Assembly: GCA_027858745.1 (NCBI GenBank) | Contig: JAQICB010000026.1 | Span: 1-50,997, forward strand | Reading direction: 5' to 3' | From: Bacteroidales bacterium | GTDB lineage: Bacteria; Bacteroidota; Bacteroidia; Bacteroidales; UBA1715 | DNA: 50,997 bases | Shown: in pieces, positions 6,481 through 48,128 of the stretch | How the letters are laid out: each line of letters starts with the position of its first letter | Position numbering within the stretch: the first letter of the stretch is position 1 | Made by a program: the position numbers and the translations under genes | The notes under the pieces: generated by a model | Told to the model about the DNA's origin: nothing | Seen by the model: only the letters and a program-made list of their open reading frames with translations | Databases searched by the model: none

Positions 6481-9400
6481 TTAGAGCTTTCGTTCGTTAA
6501 TAATAATTCCATCGTAGTATGTTCTGAGGTGCGTTTGTTCCCCTTTTTTGTTATATACTTTCTCAGTTCCCTGTTCTTTATTATTATGGTATTCTGTTTG
6601 GCTATAAGGTTTCCCATTTAAATAATACATGGTATATGTGCCATTGTAATTGCCATAAAATAAATTAACATCATACCATTTTACACCTGGAGCACTCATG
6701 CGATAGGCGTTTCCGTGACGTTCGTTTTTAACGTATGTTTCTTTTTCCATAATACTGCCATCTTCGGCGTAGCGAATAAAATCTCCGTCTAATTTACCGT
6801 TAACTCGTTCCCATTCGAGAGATTTTTCCCCCGTGCTGTAGTAGAAAACAGCTTTTCCGGTTCCTTCAAACGGTATCATGTCAATCGGTTTTCCGTCTTT
6901 TCCGTGGTACGAATAGCCAATAAGTTTTCCCATATCAAAGTATCGAATTTGATACACATTTCCTGCTTCGGAATAATACACTACAGTTCCGTGAATTTCA
7001 TCGTCAACATAGCTGCGAGAAAAGTGTATTTTGCCGTTCGGGTGATAATAAGTTTCCAATCCTTGTTGTGTATCATATTCGTACAGTTCTTCTGCATAAA
7101 TTTTTCCGGTGGCACTGTGGAATCGTTTTAATGTGCCATGAATGTCACCGTTTTCATATGGGATTTTGGTTGTTACAACTCCATTGGGAGCATACCATTT
7201 CCACAATCCGTGACGCTCACCATTTAAATAACTGCCCGAACAACTTTTTGTTCCGTTAAAATAATACCAGTTAGCCGAACCATTAAATTCTCCATTTGTG
7301 TAGGTGAGTTCTGCATATAATTTTTTCGAATGAGGGTTTACTATTTTAACTGTTCCGTGAAATTTTTCAATTGTTTGTTGAACCGTTCCGGTAGAATCGT
7401 ATATGTGTTCGAGTATGAGTTCATCTTCTTTGTAGTAGTATTCATAGTCTTTTTTTCCGGTTACATCGCAGGTATAACTATACGAAATTTCATCATTTGT
7501 AAAATAATTTTGTTTCCGTAAAGTACCGTCATTATAATAAAAAAACCATGAGCCGGTTATGGTATCATTTCGGTAATAGCCCTCGTATTCAATGGTGTCG
7601 TGAGAGAAGAAATTCATTTGCAAACCATCTTGTTTATCATCAGAATAGTTTCGTTTTGCTTTTATTGCTCCACAAGGATAGAAGTCAACAGCTTGGTCAA
7701 CAATTTCACCTTCTGAGTAATTTTCTGCAGATTTTTTAGCACCATATTTTGTGTAATAAATCCACTCACCTTCTTTGTTGTCATCTTCTAATAAGCCCTC
7801 AGTTTGTATTGTGCCATCGGGTAAAAAACTTTTGAATTCGAGATTTTTGCGAGATTTTTTTGTCTCATACACCACTTTGTTTTGTGTGTTTGTATAGGTA
7901 ATAGCAAGTGATTCACCATTTTTGTATTCCTCTGTTTTGAAGTGATTTCCATCTCTATCATATGCTTTGAGCGTTGCATTTATTTTCCCTTTTTCGTCAT
8001 ATTCTATTTCTTTTTCTAAGGAACCGTTATAGTAATAATGTTTCCATGGTCCCACCGCAGAATGCTCTTTGTACGCACCAATACTTTCAATGTTTCCGTT
8101 TTGGTAATAGGTTGTGTATTCTCCATTGAGCTCGTCTTCAATGTAATTACCTTTGATTTTTACTTGACCATTAAAATAGTATGTGGTAAATTCCCCATTC
8201 GCTTCATTTTCTGTATAGCTTGCAGTAGATTTTATATTTCCATTTGGGAAATAGATAGTGTTGGTGCTGTCTAAATCACCATCTTTAAAAAATGCTTGTT
8301 CTTTTAATGTGCCGTTGGGGTAATATGAGAGGAATTCCCCGTTGCGAACGCCTTCTTCTAACATTACATCACTGAGCGTGTCGCCATATCGTGAAAAAAA
8401 GTAATAGTGACCCGAATATTTTCCGTCAACAAATTCAGCTTCTGATTTAAGAGAACCATCTTCGCGATATGTACGGTGTTTTCCGTTAAGTGAGCCGTCT
8501 TTGTAGGTAATAGACTCGTCAATTGTTCCCGTGTTCGCATACAGCCATTCCCACTCGCCTTCACGTTCGCCATCTACAAAATTCCCACTCGAACGAATAC
8601 GTCCGTTTGTGTGGTAATATTCCCATGCTCCAATAGGTTCTTTATCTTCATTTTTGAGTCCCATACCACCAAGTAAATCCCCTTCGGTAATGTAGAACGA
8701 AACCTTTTGCCATGAATTATTAAAATTCATATATTGAGTAGAATTATAGTAATCCCAATTTTCGCGAAGCCACGCAACAAAATTTGATACGTCTTTTTGA
8801 CCTTTTTTGACCCGTTTCTGAATTTTTTTCGATTCAATGTCTGATATTGTCAAGTATACCATACCGGTATAATTTCCGGTTGTATATATGTCAATATATT
8901 TTGGAAGATATGTTTGCACCCAAAAATCAGTATTGTCGGTTGAATATTTTTTTTCTTTTGCTAAAGCGTCAAAAATCATGTATAATTGTTTCGTTAACGA
9001 CCATTTAAGTTTTGTCAAATCCTTAATGTCTTTGCTGAGAGCAATTTGGTTTTGAAAAATCAAATCAACATCTCTAAAAATCTTATCGTCTCCAAAATCA
9101 ATTCCTTTTTTATCAATTTCAATATTTAGGTCTGAAATCGATTCCATATATTCTAATAAAGCGTGTTTTTGTTCTGCAGTCGACGACATCATTGTTGCAT
9201 AAAAGAGGCTTAACATTGCACGTGTGTATTCGCCTTCTTCGGCTGCTAAAACTCCTAATCGTATATGTGAGGTGACGTGTCCCGGAGCATACAATATGGT
9301 TTTTTTGTAATATTCCACAGCTTCTTGATAGCGTTCCATGCCTTGCAGGGTAGTTGCTTTGTTAAAATAAAGTAAATAGTGATGTGTGTATTCAGCTATA

Positions 9401-9777
9401 CCTTTATCAAAAACAGCAAGTGATTCCTCATCTTTCTCTAAACTATCGAGAGCAATTGCCCAGCCCGAGTATGCCCGATGATTATATTCAGAAGCTGTTT
9501 TTGTCATGTTGCTGTATACCGCAATTGCTTCTTCAAATTTCCCTCCATTTAAAAAGTTTAAGCCCTGTTCGTATTGAGCTAAATTATATATAGTATCGTG
9601 TGTCGGTACCGAAGATAGGAGACGTTCGGCAATTTCATGTTCTTGCTCATCTATTTTATAAATAGCCGTTATTACAGAATCACGATAATTTTCGGGTTGA
9701 GCATTTTTTTGAGAAAACACCTGTGTCGTAATGCTGTAAAGCAAACAAATGGTTAAAAATGAATATGTTATTTTCAT
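6481..9777 (-). CDS. Large TPR plus MORN/YwqK-repeat exported protein
   Basis: A 1098-residue protein with signal peptide MKITYSFLTICLLYSITTQVFSQ. Residues about 40-220 are TPR-like helical repeats (for example YNKATTLQ-type segments around AVEYYKKTILYAPGHVTSHI). From about residue 380 to the C-terminus there are roughly 25-30 copies of a 22-24-residue repeat of the pattern YxNGxxxxxxxYxxGxxxGxW (for example YYPNGTLKEQAFFKDGDL, GEWEWLY), the MORN/YwqK-type repeat that forms a long twisted beta-sheet. Some relatives are annotated YwqK-family antitoxin, but the exported location and context here do not support a toxin-antitoxin role. It is the first gene of the five-gene minus-strand block; the next gene begins 6 bp on. 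Confidence 0.8.
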   Translation of the reverse strand: MKITYSFLTICLLYSITTQVFSQKNAQPENYRDSVITAIYKIDEQEHEIAERLLSSVPTHDTIYNLAQYEQGLNFLNGGKFEEAIAVYSNMTKTASEYNHRAYSGWAIALDSLEKDEESLAVFDKGIAEYTHHYLLYFNKATTLQGMERYQEAVEYYKKTILYAPGHVTSHIRLGVLAAEEGEYTRAMLSLFYATMMSSTAEQKHALLEYMESISDLNIEIDKKGIDFGDDKIFRDVDLIFQNQIALSKDIKDLTKLKWSLTKQLYMIFDALAKEKKYSTDNTDFWVQTYLPKYIDIYTTGNYTGMVYLTISDIESKKIQKRVKKGQKDVSNFVAWLRENWDYYNSTQYMNFNNSWQKVSFYITEGDLLGGMGLKNEDKEPIGAWEYYHTNGRIRSSGNFVDGEREGEWEWLYANTGTIDESITYKDGSLNGKHRTYREDGSLKSEAEFVDGKYSGHYYFFSRYGDTLSDVMLEEGVRNGEFLSYYPNGTLKEQAFFKDGDLDSTNTIYFPNGNIKSTASYTENEANGEFTTYYFNGQVKIKGNYIEDELNGEYTTYYQNGNIESIGAYKEHSAVGPWKHYYYNGSLEKEIEYDEKGKINATLKAYDRDGNHFKTEEYKNGESLAITYTNTQNKVVYETKKSRKNLEFKSFLPDGTIQTEGLLEDDNKEGEWIYYTKYGAKKSAENYSEGEIVDQAVDFYPCGAIKAKRNYSDDKQDGLQMNFFSHDTIEYEGYYRNDTITGSWFFYYNDGTLRKQNYFTNDEISYSYTCDVTGKKDYEYYYKEDELILEHIYDSTGTVQQTIEKFHGTVKIVNPHSKKLYAELTYTNGEFNGSANWYYFNGTKSCSGSYLNGERHGLWKWYAPNGVVTTKIPYENGDIHGTLKRFHSATGKIYAEELYEYDTQQGLETYYHPNGKIHFSRSYVDDEIHGTVVYYSEAGNVYQIRYFDMGKLIGYSYHGKDGKPIDMIPFEGTGKAVFYYSTGEKSLEWERVNGKLDGDFIRYAEDGSIMEKETYVKNERHGNAYRMSAPGVKWYDVNLFYGNYNGTYTMYYLNGKPYSQTEYHNNKEQGTEKVYNKKGEQTHLRTYYDGIIINERKL

Positions 9778-44284: not shown

Positions 44285-44692
44285 ATGAAAATTTTTAGGA
44301 TTATGATTTTAGCTGTTGTGACAATTAGTTGTGCAACACAGAAACAAGCGGAAAATTCGACTACAAGTTTTATTAAAATAAAATTTGGGAGTAGCGGTGG
44401 TTTTACGGGCATGACTCATGAATATTTGATTAAAAATGATGGGAAAGTCTATAAAAACACATCTGATAATTTGAGTCTTATAAATCAAATAGAAAATTCA
44501 GAAATAGAAAATATTGAAAAACAAATCGGAGAGCTGAATTTCATGAATCTAAAACTGAATGAGAAAGGTAATATGACTTATTTTATAGAGGTGCAATCTT
44601 CTACGTATAATAATAGGATAACCTGGTCAGACCGAACTCAAAATGATAGTATAAAGCAATTCTACAAAACCTTAGTCAAAACATTAAAATGA
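44285..44692 (+). CDS. Putative emfourin-like M4 metalloprotease inhibitor lipoprotein
   Basis: A 135-residue lipoprotein: signal MKIFRIMILAVVTISCATQK with lipobox Cys16. The mature domain begins TSFIKIKFGSSGGFTGMTHE and contains EKQIGELNFMNL and NRITWSD. The SGGF-T/A-G motif, followed by a short strand-turn-strand and an acidic helix, is what I recall for emfourin (PF20242), the proteinaceous inhibitor of M4 peptidases that is co-encoded with protealysin. The gene ends 7 bp before an M4 peptidase gene, as expected for such a pair. The lipid anchor would place it in the periplasm or outer membrane, unlike the cytoplasmic original. The inhibitor call rests on remembered motif and context. Confidence 0.55.
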   Translation: MKIFRIMILAVVTISCATQKQAENSTTSFIKIKFGSSGGFTGMTHEYLIKNDGKVYKNTSDNLSLINQIENSEIENIEKQIGELNFMNLKLNEKGNMTYFIEVQSSTYNNRITWSDRTQNDSIKQFYKTLVKTLK

Positions 44693-44699
44693 TACAATT

Positions 44700-47600
44700 A
44701 TGAAGCAGATTATACTTTTTTCAGTATTAGTGTTTGTATCTTTTTTTACAATGGAAGCACAAACCGGCAATGTATTTAAAGCATTTTCAAAAAAAACTTC
44801 TGGTATTACAAAAACAAACATAAACTTCAATAAAATTACAGCTAAATCAAATTTTAAATCTGCAAGTAACTCACCAAATACTTTTTCTGTTTCTCATAAT
44901 TTAAAGAAACCTCACATTAATCAAAATAAAATTCCGAGATTCTTTGAGAAAGACAAGTCTATATTAAAATCCTCAATAGTACACACAATTGAAGAGCAAT
45001 TTTATTCTTTTCATAACTCTTCAAAACAAATAACAAAGTTGTCTGACCCAAGAATGCAATTGAAAATAACAAAAAGTCATACAGATAAACTTGGAATTAC
45101 TCATATTAAAGCACAGCAATATTATAAGGGAATAAAAGTATATGGTGCGGAATCATTTGTTCATATTGGTTCAAGAAATGATATTTTTAATGGATATATA
45201 TATGAAATTGTTGATACAATAAATATAACACCTTATATCTCAAAAAATGAGGCATTAAATATTGTAAATGTAGATTTGGCAACAAAAACAGTTCAAAAAG
45301 ACTTGTCTGAAAAGCAAAAAGAAATATTGAAATATAATGCTCCTGATATTACCCTTATTATTTATGAGGAAAGTCTTGTATATGAAATTATAATACGTCC
45401 AAATTTTCTTCAGGAATGGAAATATTTTATAGATGCACATAATGGTTCAATTATTAAAGAGTTTAATAATACACATTCCGATGGGGCGTCAACTTCAACA
45501 GCATATGATTTAAATAACGTTTTAAGAACTATTAATACCTATCTTGAAAACGGAACCTATTTTTTGAAAAACACCTCAGAAAATATGTATGATACCATAT
45601 CTCAAGAAGGCATTATTTTAACCTTAAATGCAAATAACACGTCAACTGTTAATTTGGACTATACAACAATATCTTCAGTTGATAATACATGGTCAAATCA
45701 AACAGCAGTTTCTGCTCATTATAATGCAACAGCTACATATGAATATTTTGAAAACACTTTTGGTCGAAACTCAATAAATGGTCAAGGAGGTAATATAATA
45801 TCATTTATTAATGTTGCTAATGAAGATGGTAGTTCTATGGAAAATGCTTTTTGGAATGGTCAAGCTGCTTTTTATGGTAATGGTGGTTCTGCATTTTATT
45901 CTCTGGCAGGTGCTTTAGACGTTATTGCTCATGAACTCGGACATGGAGTTGTTTCCAATACTGCTAATCTTGAATATTATGGTGAATCGGGAGCAATAAA
46001 TGAAACATTTGCTGATATATTCGGAGCAATGGTTGATAGAGATGATTGGTTAATTGGAGAGGATGTTACCAAAACATCGTTTTCCCCATCAGGTGCTCTT
46101 AGAAATATGTCTGACCCACACAATACAGGAACTTCAATAACTGATTATTACTGGCAACCCAAGCATATTTCGGAAATGTATATCGGCTTACAAGATAATG
46201 GAGGCGTTCATATAAATAGTGGTATTGGGAATTATGCTTATTATCTCTACGCAACTGCTATAAGTAAAGATAAAGCAGAACAAGTATTTTACCGTGCATT
46301 AACAAATTATCTCACAAGAAAGTCTCAATTTATAGATTTGAGAATAGCAGTTATACAATCTGCTGAGGATTTATATGGAGATAGTTCTAATGAAGTTATT
46401 GAAGCTGGTTATGCCTTTGATTCAGTTGGAATATTTGAAGAAGAAAGTATTGATTATGCACAGGATTATCCTGTAAATCTCGGACAAGACCATTTATTAA
46501 CCTATGATACCGATTTTTTCAACTCAAATACATTGTATAGATCTTCAGTAATTGGTGAAGATTTTTATGCTTTATCTACTACAGAAATGAAAGGAAGTGT
46601 AAGTGTGTCAGATGATGGTACTGTGGCTGTTTTTGTTGCAATGGATGATAAAATAAAAGTGATAAGTACTGACCCTGATGATATTCAAGAGTCGTATTTC
46701 TCAGATAATGCATTTTTTGATAATGTTGCTATTTCGAAAGATGGGAATCGTTTAGCAGCTATTTCCACTGAAATAGATACAGCTATATATGTGTATGATT
46801 TTATTAGCGAGCAGTGGTCTAAGTTTAGGCTATATAATCCAACAACGAGCCACGGCGGAACTGATGCCGGTGGTGTTTTATTTGCAGATGCAATTGAATT
46901 TGACCATACGGGAGAGTATTTGATTTATGATGCTTTTAATGTGTTAAACTCATCTTTGGGTGATAATATTATGTATTGGGATATTGGCTTTATAAAAGTT
47001 TGGGATAATAGTACAAATGATTTTGGAGATGGTACAATTAATAAACTCTATGGTTCTCTTCCCGAAAACATCAGTATTGGAAACCCCACATTTTCGAAAA
47101 ATTCTCCACATATAATAGCATTTGATTACTTTGATAGTGATATAAATGAGTATGGTATATTTGGAGCTAATATATTAACAGGTGAAGTAGATTTGATAAC
47201 TACTAATGCAATAATTGGATACCCAAGCTTCTCAAAAAATGATGATAAAATAGCATTTTCAGCATTAAACATGAGTGATGAAGAAGTTGTTGCGGTTACT
47301 TCTTTGTCTGCAAATAAAATAGCAGGTGTTGGAATTCCTTCAATTATAGTGAATTATGCTAAGTGGCCCGTTTTTTATACTGTGGGTGATAGATACTTAG
47401 ATTTAGTGCCAATAGCAGATTTTACTGCTGATGTTCAATCAGGAGAAGCTCCTTTGAATATTCAATTTACGGATTTATCAATAAATAATCCAAATTCATG
47501 GAGTTGGTCTTTTGAAGGAGGAACTCCGACAACATCAACCCAACAAAACCCTTCAGTTACTTATAGTTCAGAAGGCATGTATCAAGTTTCCTTAACTTGT

Positions 47601-47903
47601 GCAAATAGTGCTGGTGATGATACTATTACCAAAAGTAGTTATATTTCAGTTGTGAATATACCAACTGGTATTGATAATTATTCCGAAGAACTTTTTTCAT
47701 TTTATCCTAATCCAACAAGTGGGGTGGTATATTTTGATTCAGATATAGAATTTGAATTAAAAATTTACTCTTCTACAGGTTTATTATTAATTGAATGTGC
47801 AAATGTGAAAAATGTTGATATATCAAACTTCTCAAATGGACTTTATTTTATTCATTTACAAATAGATAATAAAATATTTATGAATAAGATACTCAAACTT
47901 TAA
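44700..47903 (+). CDS. Secreted M4 (thermolysin-family) metallopeptidase with beta-propeller, PKD and T9SS sorting domain
   Basis: A 1067-residue preproprotein. Signal peptide MKQIILFSVLVFVSFFTMEA; FTP/PepSY propeptide region about 85-255; M4 catalytic domain about 260-580 with zinc motif HELGH (His411, Glu412, His415), third ligand Glu435 in GAINETFADIFG and catalytic His504 in DNGGVHINSGIGN. Residues about 590-900 resemble a TolB-like beta-propeller (VSVSDDGTVAVFVAMDD; ISKDGNRLAAIS). A PKD domain (about 905-985, SWSWSFEGGTP) and a T9SS type A tail (YPNPTSGVVYFDS ... NGLYFIHL ... NKILKL) finish it. It is exported through the outer membrane and degrades proteins extracellularly. The small putative inhibitor gene precedes it by 7 bp. 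Confidence 0.93.
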   Translation: MKQIILFSVLVFVSFFTMEAQTGNVFKAFSKKTSGITKTNINFNKITAKSNFKSASNSPNTFSVSHNLKKPHINQNKIPRFFEKDKSILKSSIVHTIEEQFYSFHNSSKQITKLSDPRMQLKITKSHTDKLGITHIKAQQYYKGIKVYGAESFVHIGSRNDIFNGYIYEIVDTINITPYISKNEALNIVNVDLATKTVQKDLSEKQKEILKYNAPDITLIIYEESLVYEIIIRPNFLQEWKYFIDAHNGSIIKEFNNTHSDGASTSTAYDLNNVLRTINTYLENGTYFLKNTSENMYDTISQEGIILTLNANNTSTVNLDYTTISSVDNTWSNQTAVSAHYNATATYEYFENTFGRNSINGQGGNIISFINVANEDGSSMENAFWNGQAAFYGNGGSAFYSLAGALDVIAHELGHGVVSNTANLEYYGESGAINETFADIFGAMVDRDDWLIGEDVTKTSFSPSGALRNMSDPHNTGTSITDYYWQPKHISEMYIGLQDNGGVHINSGIGNYAYYLYATAISKDKAEQVFYRALTNYLTRKSQFIDLRIAVIQSAEDLYGDSSNEVIEAGYAFDSVGIFEEESIDYAQDYPVNLGQDHLLTYDTDFFNSNTLYRSSVIGEDFYALSTTEMKGSVSVSDDGTVAVFVAMDDKIKVISTDPDDIQESYFSDNAFFDNVAISKDGNRLAAISTEIDTAIYVYDFISEQWSKFRLYNPTTSHGGTDAGGVLFADAIEFDHTGEYLIYDAFNVLNSSLGDNIMYWDIGFIKVWDNSTNDFGDGTINKLYGSLPENISIGNPTFSKNSPHIIAFDYFDSDINEYGIFGANILTGEVDLITTNAIIGYPSFSKNDDKIAFSALNMSDEEVVAVTSLSANKIAGVGIPSIIVNYAKWPVFYTVGDRYLDLVPIADFTADVQSGEAPLNIQFTDLSINNPNSWSWSFEGGTPTTSTQQNPSVTYSSEGMYQVSLTCANSAGDDTITKSSYISVVNIPTGIDNYSEELFSFYPNPTSGVVYFDSDIEFELKIYSSTGLLLIECANVKNVDISNFSNGLYFIHLQIDNKIFMNKILKL

Positions 47904-48020: not shown

Positions 48021-48055
48021 AAAAAAGGTGATTAAAATTAATAACCACCTTTTTG
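48021..48055 (-). terminator. Terminator after tRNA-Lys (bidirectional)
   Basis: Imperfect 13-bp inverted repeat AAAAAGGTGATTA (48022-48034) / TAACCACCTTTTT region (48042-48055), beginning directly at the tRNA 3' end on the minus strand and followed on that strand by a T-rich run. It could also stop read-through from the peptidase gene. Confidence 0.7.
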
Positions 48056-48128
48056 TGATTCAGCTGGGGTTCGAACCCAGGACCCCATCCTTAAAAGGGA
48101 TGTGCTCTACCAGCTGAGCTACTGAATC
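48056..48128 (-). tRNA. tRNA-Lys (anticodon UUU)
   Basis: A 73-nt cloverleaf on the minus strand: acceptor GATTCAG/CTGAATC, D-arm GCTCAGCTGGTAGAGC, anticodon stem CATCC/GGATG with loop CTTTTAA (anticodon TTT), T-arm CTGGGTTCGAACCCCAG, discriminator A. CCA is not encoded. A consensus promoter lies just upstream at 48152-48182 and a terminator just downstream. Confidence 0.97.

Follow-up and report, generated by a model that had tools for sequence, protein, structure and literature searches.

Bacteria whose proteases cross the periplasm need a safeguard against these enzymes. To our knowledge, one for T9SS enzymes has been described in a single oral pathogen only, in the form of the potempins, which have no common sequence family. 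The locus studied here raises the question of whether another such safeguard exists: in a 50,997-nucleotide contig of a Bacteroidales bacterium (the whole stretch analysed, hereafter the window), a small lipoprotein gene lies directly ahead of the gene of a large secreted M4 peptidase. A first-pass annotation made from the letters alone had taken the lipoprotein for a lipid-anchored relative of the inhibitor emfourin. We asked how the two genes are associated across the phylum, to which family the lipoprotein belongs, and which function fits best. The small gene has the following features:

44285..44692, + strand: putative lipoprotein inhibitor gene, 135 aa (ORF; homologs in 35 of 396 genomes of the phylum; dN/dS 0.15)
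44321..44332, + strand: lipobox TISC with Cys16; positions +2 to +6 are ATQKQ, without an acidic export signal (sequence)
44393..44410, + strand: SGGFTG motif, residues 37–42, turn joining strands 1 and 2 (alignment A2, AF2 model)
44444..44488, + strand: extra beta-hairpin, residues 54–68, not in emfourins (AF2 models, gap in the profile-profile alignment)
44564..44572, + strand: KGN loop, residues 94–96, at the position of the emfourins' invariant Asp (alignments A2 and A7, profile alignment)

The translated N-terminus reads MKIFRIMILAVVTISC followed by ATQKQ, a type II signal with its lipobox cysteine at position 16. Across 29 homologs (alignment A2), residues G38, G39, G42 and G53 are invariant and N96 is nearly so, with the loop ending in Gly or Ala and then Asn in 28 of the 29. 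The AF2 model, of high confidence for the mature domain (pLDDT 87), predicts six strands and two helices: strands at residues 29–38, 44–50, 54–59 and 62–68, a helix at 71–83, strands at 97–105 and 109–115, and a helix at 121–134.

The downstream gene encodes a multidomain enzyme:

44700..47903, + strand: M4 (thermolysin-family) peptidase, T9SS cargo, 1067 aa (Pfam)
45057..45461, + strand: propeptide with FTP (residues 120–163) and a weak PepSY (180–254) (Pfam)
45498..46433, + strand: M4 catalytic domains, residues 267–578, comprising Peptidase_M4 (267–418) and Peptidase_M4_C (422–578) (Pfam)
45930–45944, + strand: HELGH zinc site, residues 411–415 (invariant columns of alignment A5)
46467..47399, + strand: beta-propeller-like region, about residues 590–900 (PD40 match, phmmer)
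within 44700..47903, + strand: PKD domain, residues 904–984 (Pfam)
47703..47891, + strand: T9SS C-terminal sorting domain Por_Secre_tail, residues 1002–1064 (Pfam, genome tail scan)

The catalytic residues HELGH, E435, D439 and H504 are intact and invariant among 24 relatives (alignment A5), and the propeller-like region is common to most peptidases of the paired clade described below, as judged by phmmer against M4 proteins, 24 of them paired and 43 unpaired. The same genome encodes SprA and 54 Por_Secre tails and therefore has a T9SS, for which the peptidase carries the C-terminal sorting domain. The first-pass description of this locus, a 135-residue lipoprotein with a lipobox at Cys16 and an SGGFTG motif, ending 7 bp before the gene of a T9SS-secreted M4 peptidase, is thus correct in its particulars (ORFs 44285–44692 and 44700–47903). 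A tRNA-Lys (ttt) gene lies shortly past the peptidase gene on the opposite strand (48055–48128, −).

Both genes lie on the + strand, the lipoprotein stop 7 bp ahead of the peptidase ATG. This short gap suggests co-transcription, and a simple terminator scan found no + strand terminator between the two. When 297 Bacteroidota genomes were searched with the single sequence and without regard to neighbours, 17 homologs were accepted as true by alignment, 12 of them with an M4 gene within 1.5 kb; since any M4 gene at all is present in only 68 of the 297 genomes, this rate is beyond chance. A profile search of 396 genomes raised the number of homologs to 35, and inspection of up to about 9 kb of flank per side placed 24 of them (window included) directly beside a same-strand M4 gene. 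The lipoprotein comes before the peptidase in 23 of these 24 adjacent pairs, with gaps of −26 to 69 bp. Among 80 close relatives from the window's own order the gene occurs in six; in five of them the peptidase gene follows immediately, with one such pair split over two contig ends. The closest relative (G647), a member of the same family, also has the two genes 7 bp apart; identity with the window is 64% for the lipoprotein and 74% for the first half of the peptidase, and dN/dS values of 0.15 and 0.16, respectively, place the lipoprotein under purifying selection, with the peptidase value close to it.

The other 11 of the 35 homologs are not beside an M4 gene. They include a more distant homolog type (L114–L116), and two loci (L084 and L112) whose flanks held no clear partner gene. 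Four members from one family of genomes (L096, L102, L108 and L113) form a distinct subgroup with the pattern WTGYxI..DGSV..WSG that is never found beside M4; its neighbours include a SnoaL-like protein (L102 and L113) and an elongation factor P-like gene (L102 and L108). At L103, a relative lacking the lipobox (8975–9436, −) precedes the gene of an M61 peptidase (glycyl aminopeptidase; 7129–8910, −) rather than an M4 one, M61 being, like M4, a family of zinc peptidases. The last of the 11, at L117, was a weak and probably spurious match; two genes away from it lies a DUF6438-type lipoprotein with the sequence SGCFGTCPIY (6987–7496, −).

All 24 partners are M4 enzymes and, at the thresholds used, 23 carry FTP and 22 the Por_Secre_tail, while neither a homolog of the lipoprotein nor a similar small lipoprotein upstream occurred in the regions flanking 40 other M4 loci. 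The genomic survey that the first-pass annotation had proposed finds the lipoprotein kept beside M4/T9SS peptidases. A tree of 66 M4 catalytic domains, built by a quick method with SH-aLRT values, gathers the 24 partners in a single clade of 33 sequences with support 89, or 99 for an inner clade of 27; the other nine of the 33 are M4 genes without a lipoprotein neighbour. There is no paired member in a second group of 25, nor in a third formed by the partners of true emfourins. An old pairing followed by several losses is the likely history, with several gains as a possible alternative. The mirror-tree correlation between lipoproteins and peptidases (Pearson 0.80 against a permutation maximum of 0.36; Spearman 0.32) is not counted as evidence of co-adaptation, because shared species history alone would produce it.

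The location of the lipoprotein can be predicted from its N-terminus. A lipobox Cys is present in 21 of the 24 paired members; of the other three, L094 and L101 seem to begin with a standard signal peptide, and L089 with a brief hydrophobic stretch that lacks the Cys. In Bacteroidota lipoproteins two acidic residues at +2 to +6 act as the surface-export signal (PMC5080379), and none of the 21 carries such a pair. Most paired lipoproteins, that of the window among them, should therefore face the periplasm, the compartment that T9SS cargo crosses.

Emfourin (PF20242; PDB 6zyg), the protealysin-associated protein, binds the active-site region of protealysin 1:1 (PMC9505478). Direct searches did not place the lipoprotein in this family. 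The HMM check suggested by the first-pass annotation came back negative, PF20242 giving no match to the window lipoprotein at E ≤ 10; among the 29 relatives it gave one match (E 0.026), below the Pfam cut-off of 27 bits, and the genome scan one relative (E 0.042). NCBIfam and PDB sequence searches with the single lipoprotein as query returned nothing, and the 29-member profile had no meaningful match and no related solved chain in the PDB. Matches to TseH and SaoB were rejected as chance-level.

A relationship does emerge from profile-profile comparison. With signal peptides trimmed and diverse emfourins added, hhalign aligned the profile of the 29 relatives with one of 15 emfourins at a probability of 91% and a score of 39.1 over 95 columns, full length, whereas 100 column-shuffled controls never exceeded 16.1 and the reversed profile scored 7.5; an earlier comparison with five emfourins only had given a probability of 24%. 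The alignment puts GGFTG on the emfourin GGFxG and has the emfourins skip about 19 residues at the position of the extra hairpin. In the AF2 model of a Bacteroidota emfourin (pLDDT 78, moderate), strands are predicted at 2–9 and 16–21, a helix at 26–37, strands at 50–57 and 62–68, and a helix at 74–87, so that the order strand–GGFxG–strand–helix–strand–strand–helix is common to both models, apart from the one hairpin inserted in the lipoprotein. Twelve aligned emfourins share an invariant GG pair and, before strand 3, one invariant Asp (12 of 12), which we take to be a zinc ligand and which is replaced by Gly or Asn in the lipoprotein family. In the emfourin NMR structure, the Asp of one loop reportedly binds zinc while the substrate site is occupied by another loop, hydrophobic in character. 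G38–G42 and N96 sit in turns matching these two loops; the two-loop arrangement may thus persist, but with the Asp missing the contact with zinc would have to differ.

Foldseek did not place the lipoprotein model with emfourin, a silence that is uninformative because the emfourin's own model also misses the solved structure 6zyg in its top 50. The best Foldseek match of the lipoprotein was Mago nashi (E 8e-6, TM about 0.5, identity of 13–18% over the aligned part), a eukaryotic RNA-processing factor of the exon junction complex with strands and helices in similar order; we set this match aside as likely only a shared simple topology.

On the sequences and models, the lipoprotein is best read as a distinct family distantly related to emfourin, and equally to DUF6438, and not as emfourin proper or a plain lipid-anchored version of it, given the missing PF20242 match and the missing invariant Asp. 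Some small probability stays with a simple topology shared by the lipoprotein, emfourin and DUF6438 (see below) without common descent. The emfourin-like inhibitor of the first-pass annotation hence survives at the level of profile homology and predicted topology, and not as a family assignment. Its comparison with the emfourin/protealysin neighbourhood holds in that both genes adjoin an M4 gene, and its view that known emfourins lack a lipid anchor agrees with those examined here, which have 88–116 aa and no signal peptide, and usually lie downstream of a protealysin-like enzyme of 340–420 aa. The present family, in contrast, is lipid-anchored, has the extra hairpin and Asn for Asp, and stands upstream of T9SS-tailed enzymes of about 1000 aa from another M4 clade.

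Several observations on emfourins themselves were made along the way. In Hymenobacter volaticus, the annotated emfourin gene (L122:1113–1427, +) precedes its M4 gene instead of following it as usual, and this M4 gene is missing from the plasmid's gene table. On the unannotated record NZ_CP081947.1 (L119), labelled as a plasmid of 'Pseudomonas sp. DR48', the emfourin shares up to 90% identity with those of Arthrobacter and Pseudarthrobacter, so that the source label may be wrong. In three genomes (G013, G034 and G131; loci L029–L031, L052 and L053), many weak PF20242 matches lie inside giant ORFs of 7,600–11,600 residues; these probably come from repeats with a comparable short pattern of strands rather than from emfourins.

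A closer precedent for the gene arrangement exists, which the first-pass annotation overlooked in favour of emfourin/protealysin. In Tannerella forsythia, a small lipoprotein gene lies directly ahead of each of six T9SS KLIKK proteases (PMC4404884), and the products, potempins, are reported to inhibit the downstream protease specifically, PotE pairing with the metalloprotease forsilysin (PMC7296668). The locus studied here is arranged likewise, its small lipoprotein gene immediately preceding that of a T9SS peptidase, so the principle of a lipoprotein inhibitor encoded before its T9SS peptidase is not new. Forsilysin is, moreover, an M4 enzyme. Potempins differ in that they have been described in one oral species, as six ORFs without mutual sequence similarity, and in their fold, an OB-fold or eight-stranded barrel as opposed to the predicted strands and two helices of our family. 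New, within the literature searched, is a single recognisable family that occurs phylum-wide, is tied to one M4 clade and has an emfourin-like predicted fold rather than a barrel. We count the lipoprotein neither as a PF20242 member nor as a potempin.

Taken together, the conserved pairing, the restriction to one peptidase clade, purifying selection, the profile and fold link to emfourin and the precedents of potempins and emfourin make it probable that the small gene encodes a lipid-anchored, periplasm-facing inhibitor of the adjacent M4 peptidase, made together with it. Counting against this reading are the missing PF20242 match and Asp, the Foldseek result without emfourin, the 11 unpaired homologs and the nine unpaired M4 genes of the clade. 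Under such a mechanism, the peptidase would enter the periplasm as a pro-enzyme; the lipoprotein would capture any molecule whose FTP-PepSY propeptide came off too early, plugging the active-site cleft with its two conserved turns, GGFTG and the loop that N96 closes; and the remaining peptidase would exit via the T9SS and be active outside. The lipoprotein would then be a built-in safeguard protecting the producer from its own enzyme. The first-pass proposal that it would keep the peptidase silent until T9SS export is plausible.

Other functions were weighed against inhibition of the outgoing enzyme. M4 pro-enzymes need folding help, and a foldase-like or hand-over lipoprotein that assists folding or export would agree with this need, with the fixed gene order and very short gaps, and with the prevalence of the lipobox in paired members. 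We consider such a role improbable, since the FTP and PepSY propeptide that the peptidase itself carries normally does that job, the nine related peptidases of the same clade manage without the gene, and the lipoprotein's fold connects it with a family of inhibitors. Somewhat less remote, though still unlikely, is an immunity protein directed against peptidase from siblings or returning from outside. Potempins are described as protecting the outer membrane of the producer, which is in keeping with this role. For emfourin too, a role as an inhibitor of the immunity type has been suggested (PMC9505478), but the absence of a surface-export signal from all 21 lipobox-bearing paired members points to the periplasmic side (rule: PMC5080379).

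The remaining rival assigns the lipoprotein to a DUF6438-type family with a general envelope role, its adjacency to M4 being secondary. DUF6438 (PF20033) comprises uncharacterised Bacteroidota lipoproteins with a similar core profile, on which a literature search by name found no paper. The profile link is as strong as that to emfourin (hhalign probability 95%, score 51.5, shuffled controls not above 18.2), and some homologs do lie beside unrelated genes. However, the CFGxCP motif that DUF6438 has instead of GGFTG is missing from alignment A2, none of the 29 relatives reaches the PF20033 cut-off (two sub-threshold matches, best E 0.055), and the association with M4 is far above chance; of all the readings, this one appears to us the hardest to sustain.

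If the inhibitor reading is true, one recognisable family, tied to a single peptidase clade, does the safeguarding in many lineages of the phylum, a widespread hypothetical lipoprotein gains a likely role, and the safeguard idea becomes directly testable. It would also suggest how an intracellular inhibitor fold and one of the envelope are related. A broader and more tentative idea, which we regard as rather doubtful, is that the lipoprotein family, the cytosolic emfourins and DUF6438 form one metallopeptidase-inhibitor superfamily, serving in Bacteroidota as general envelope-anchored guards against zinc peptidases. The emfourin and DUF6438 profiles do not match each other directly; a point cited with this idea is the relative at L103, which stands ahead of M61 and not M4.
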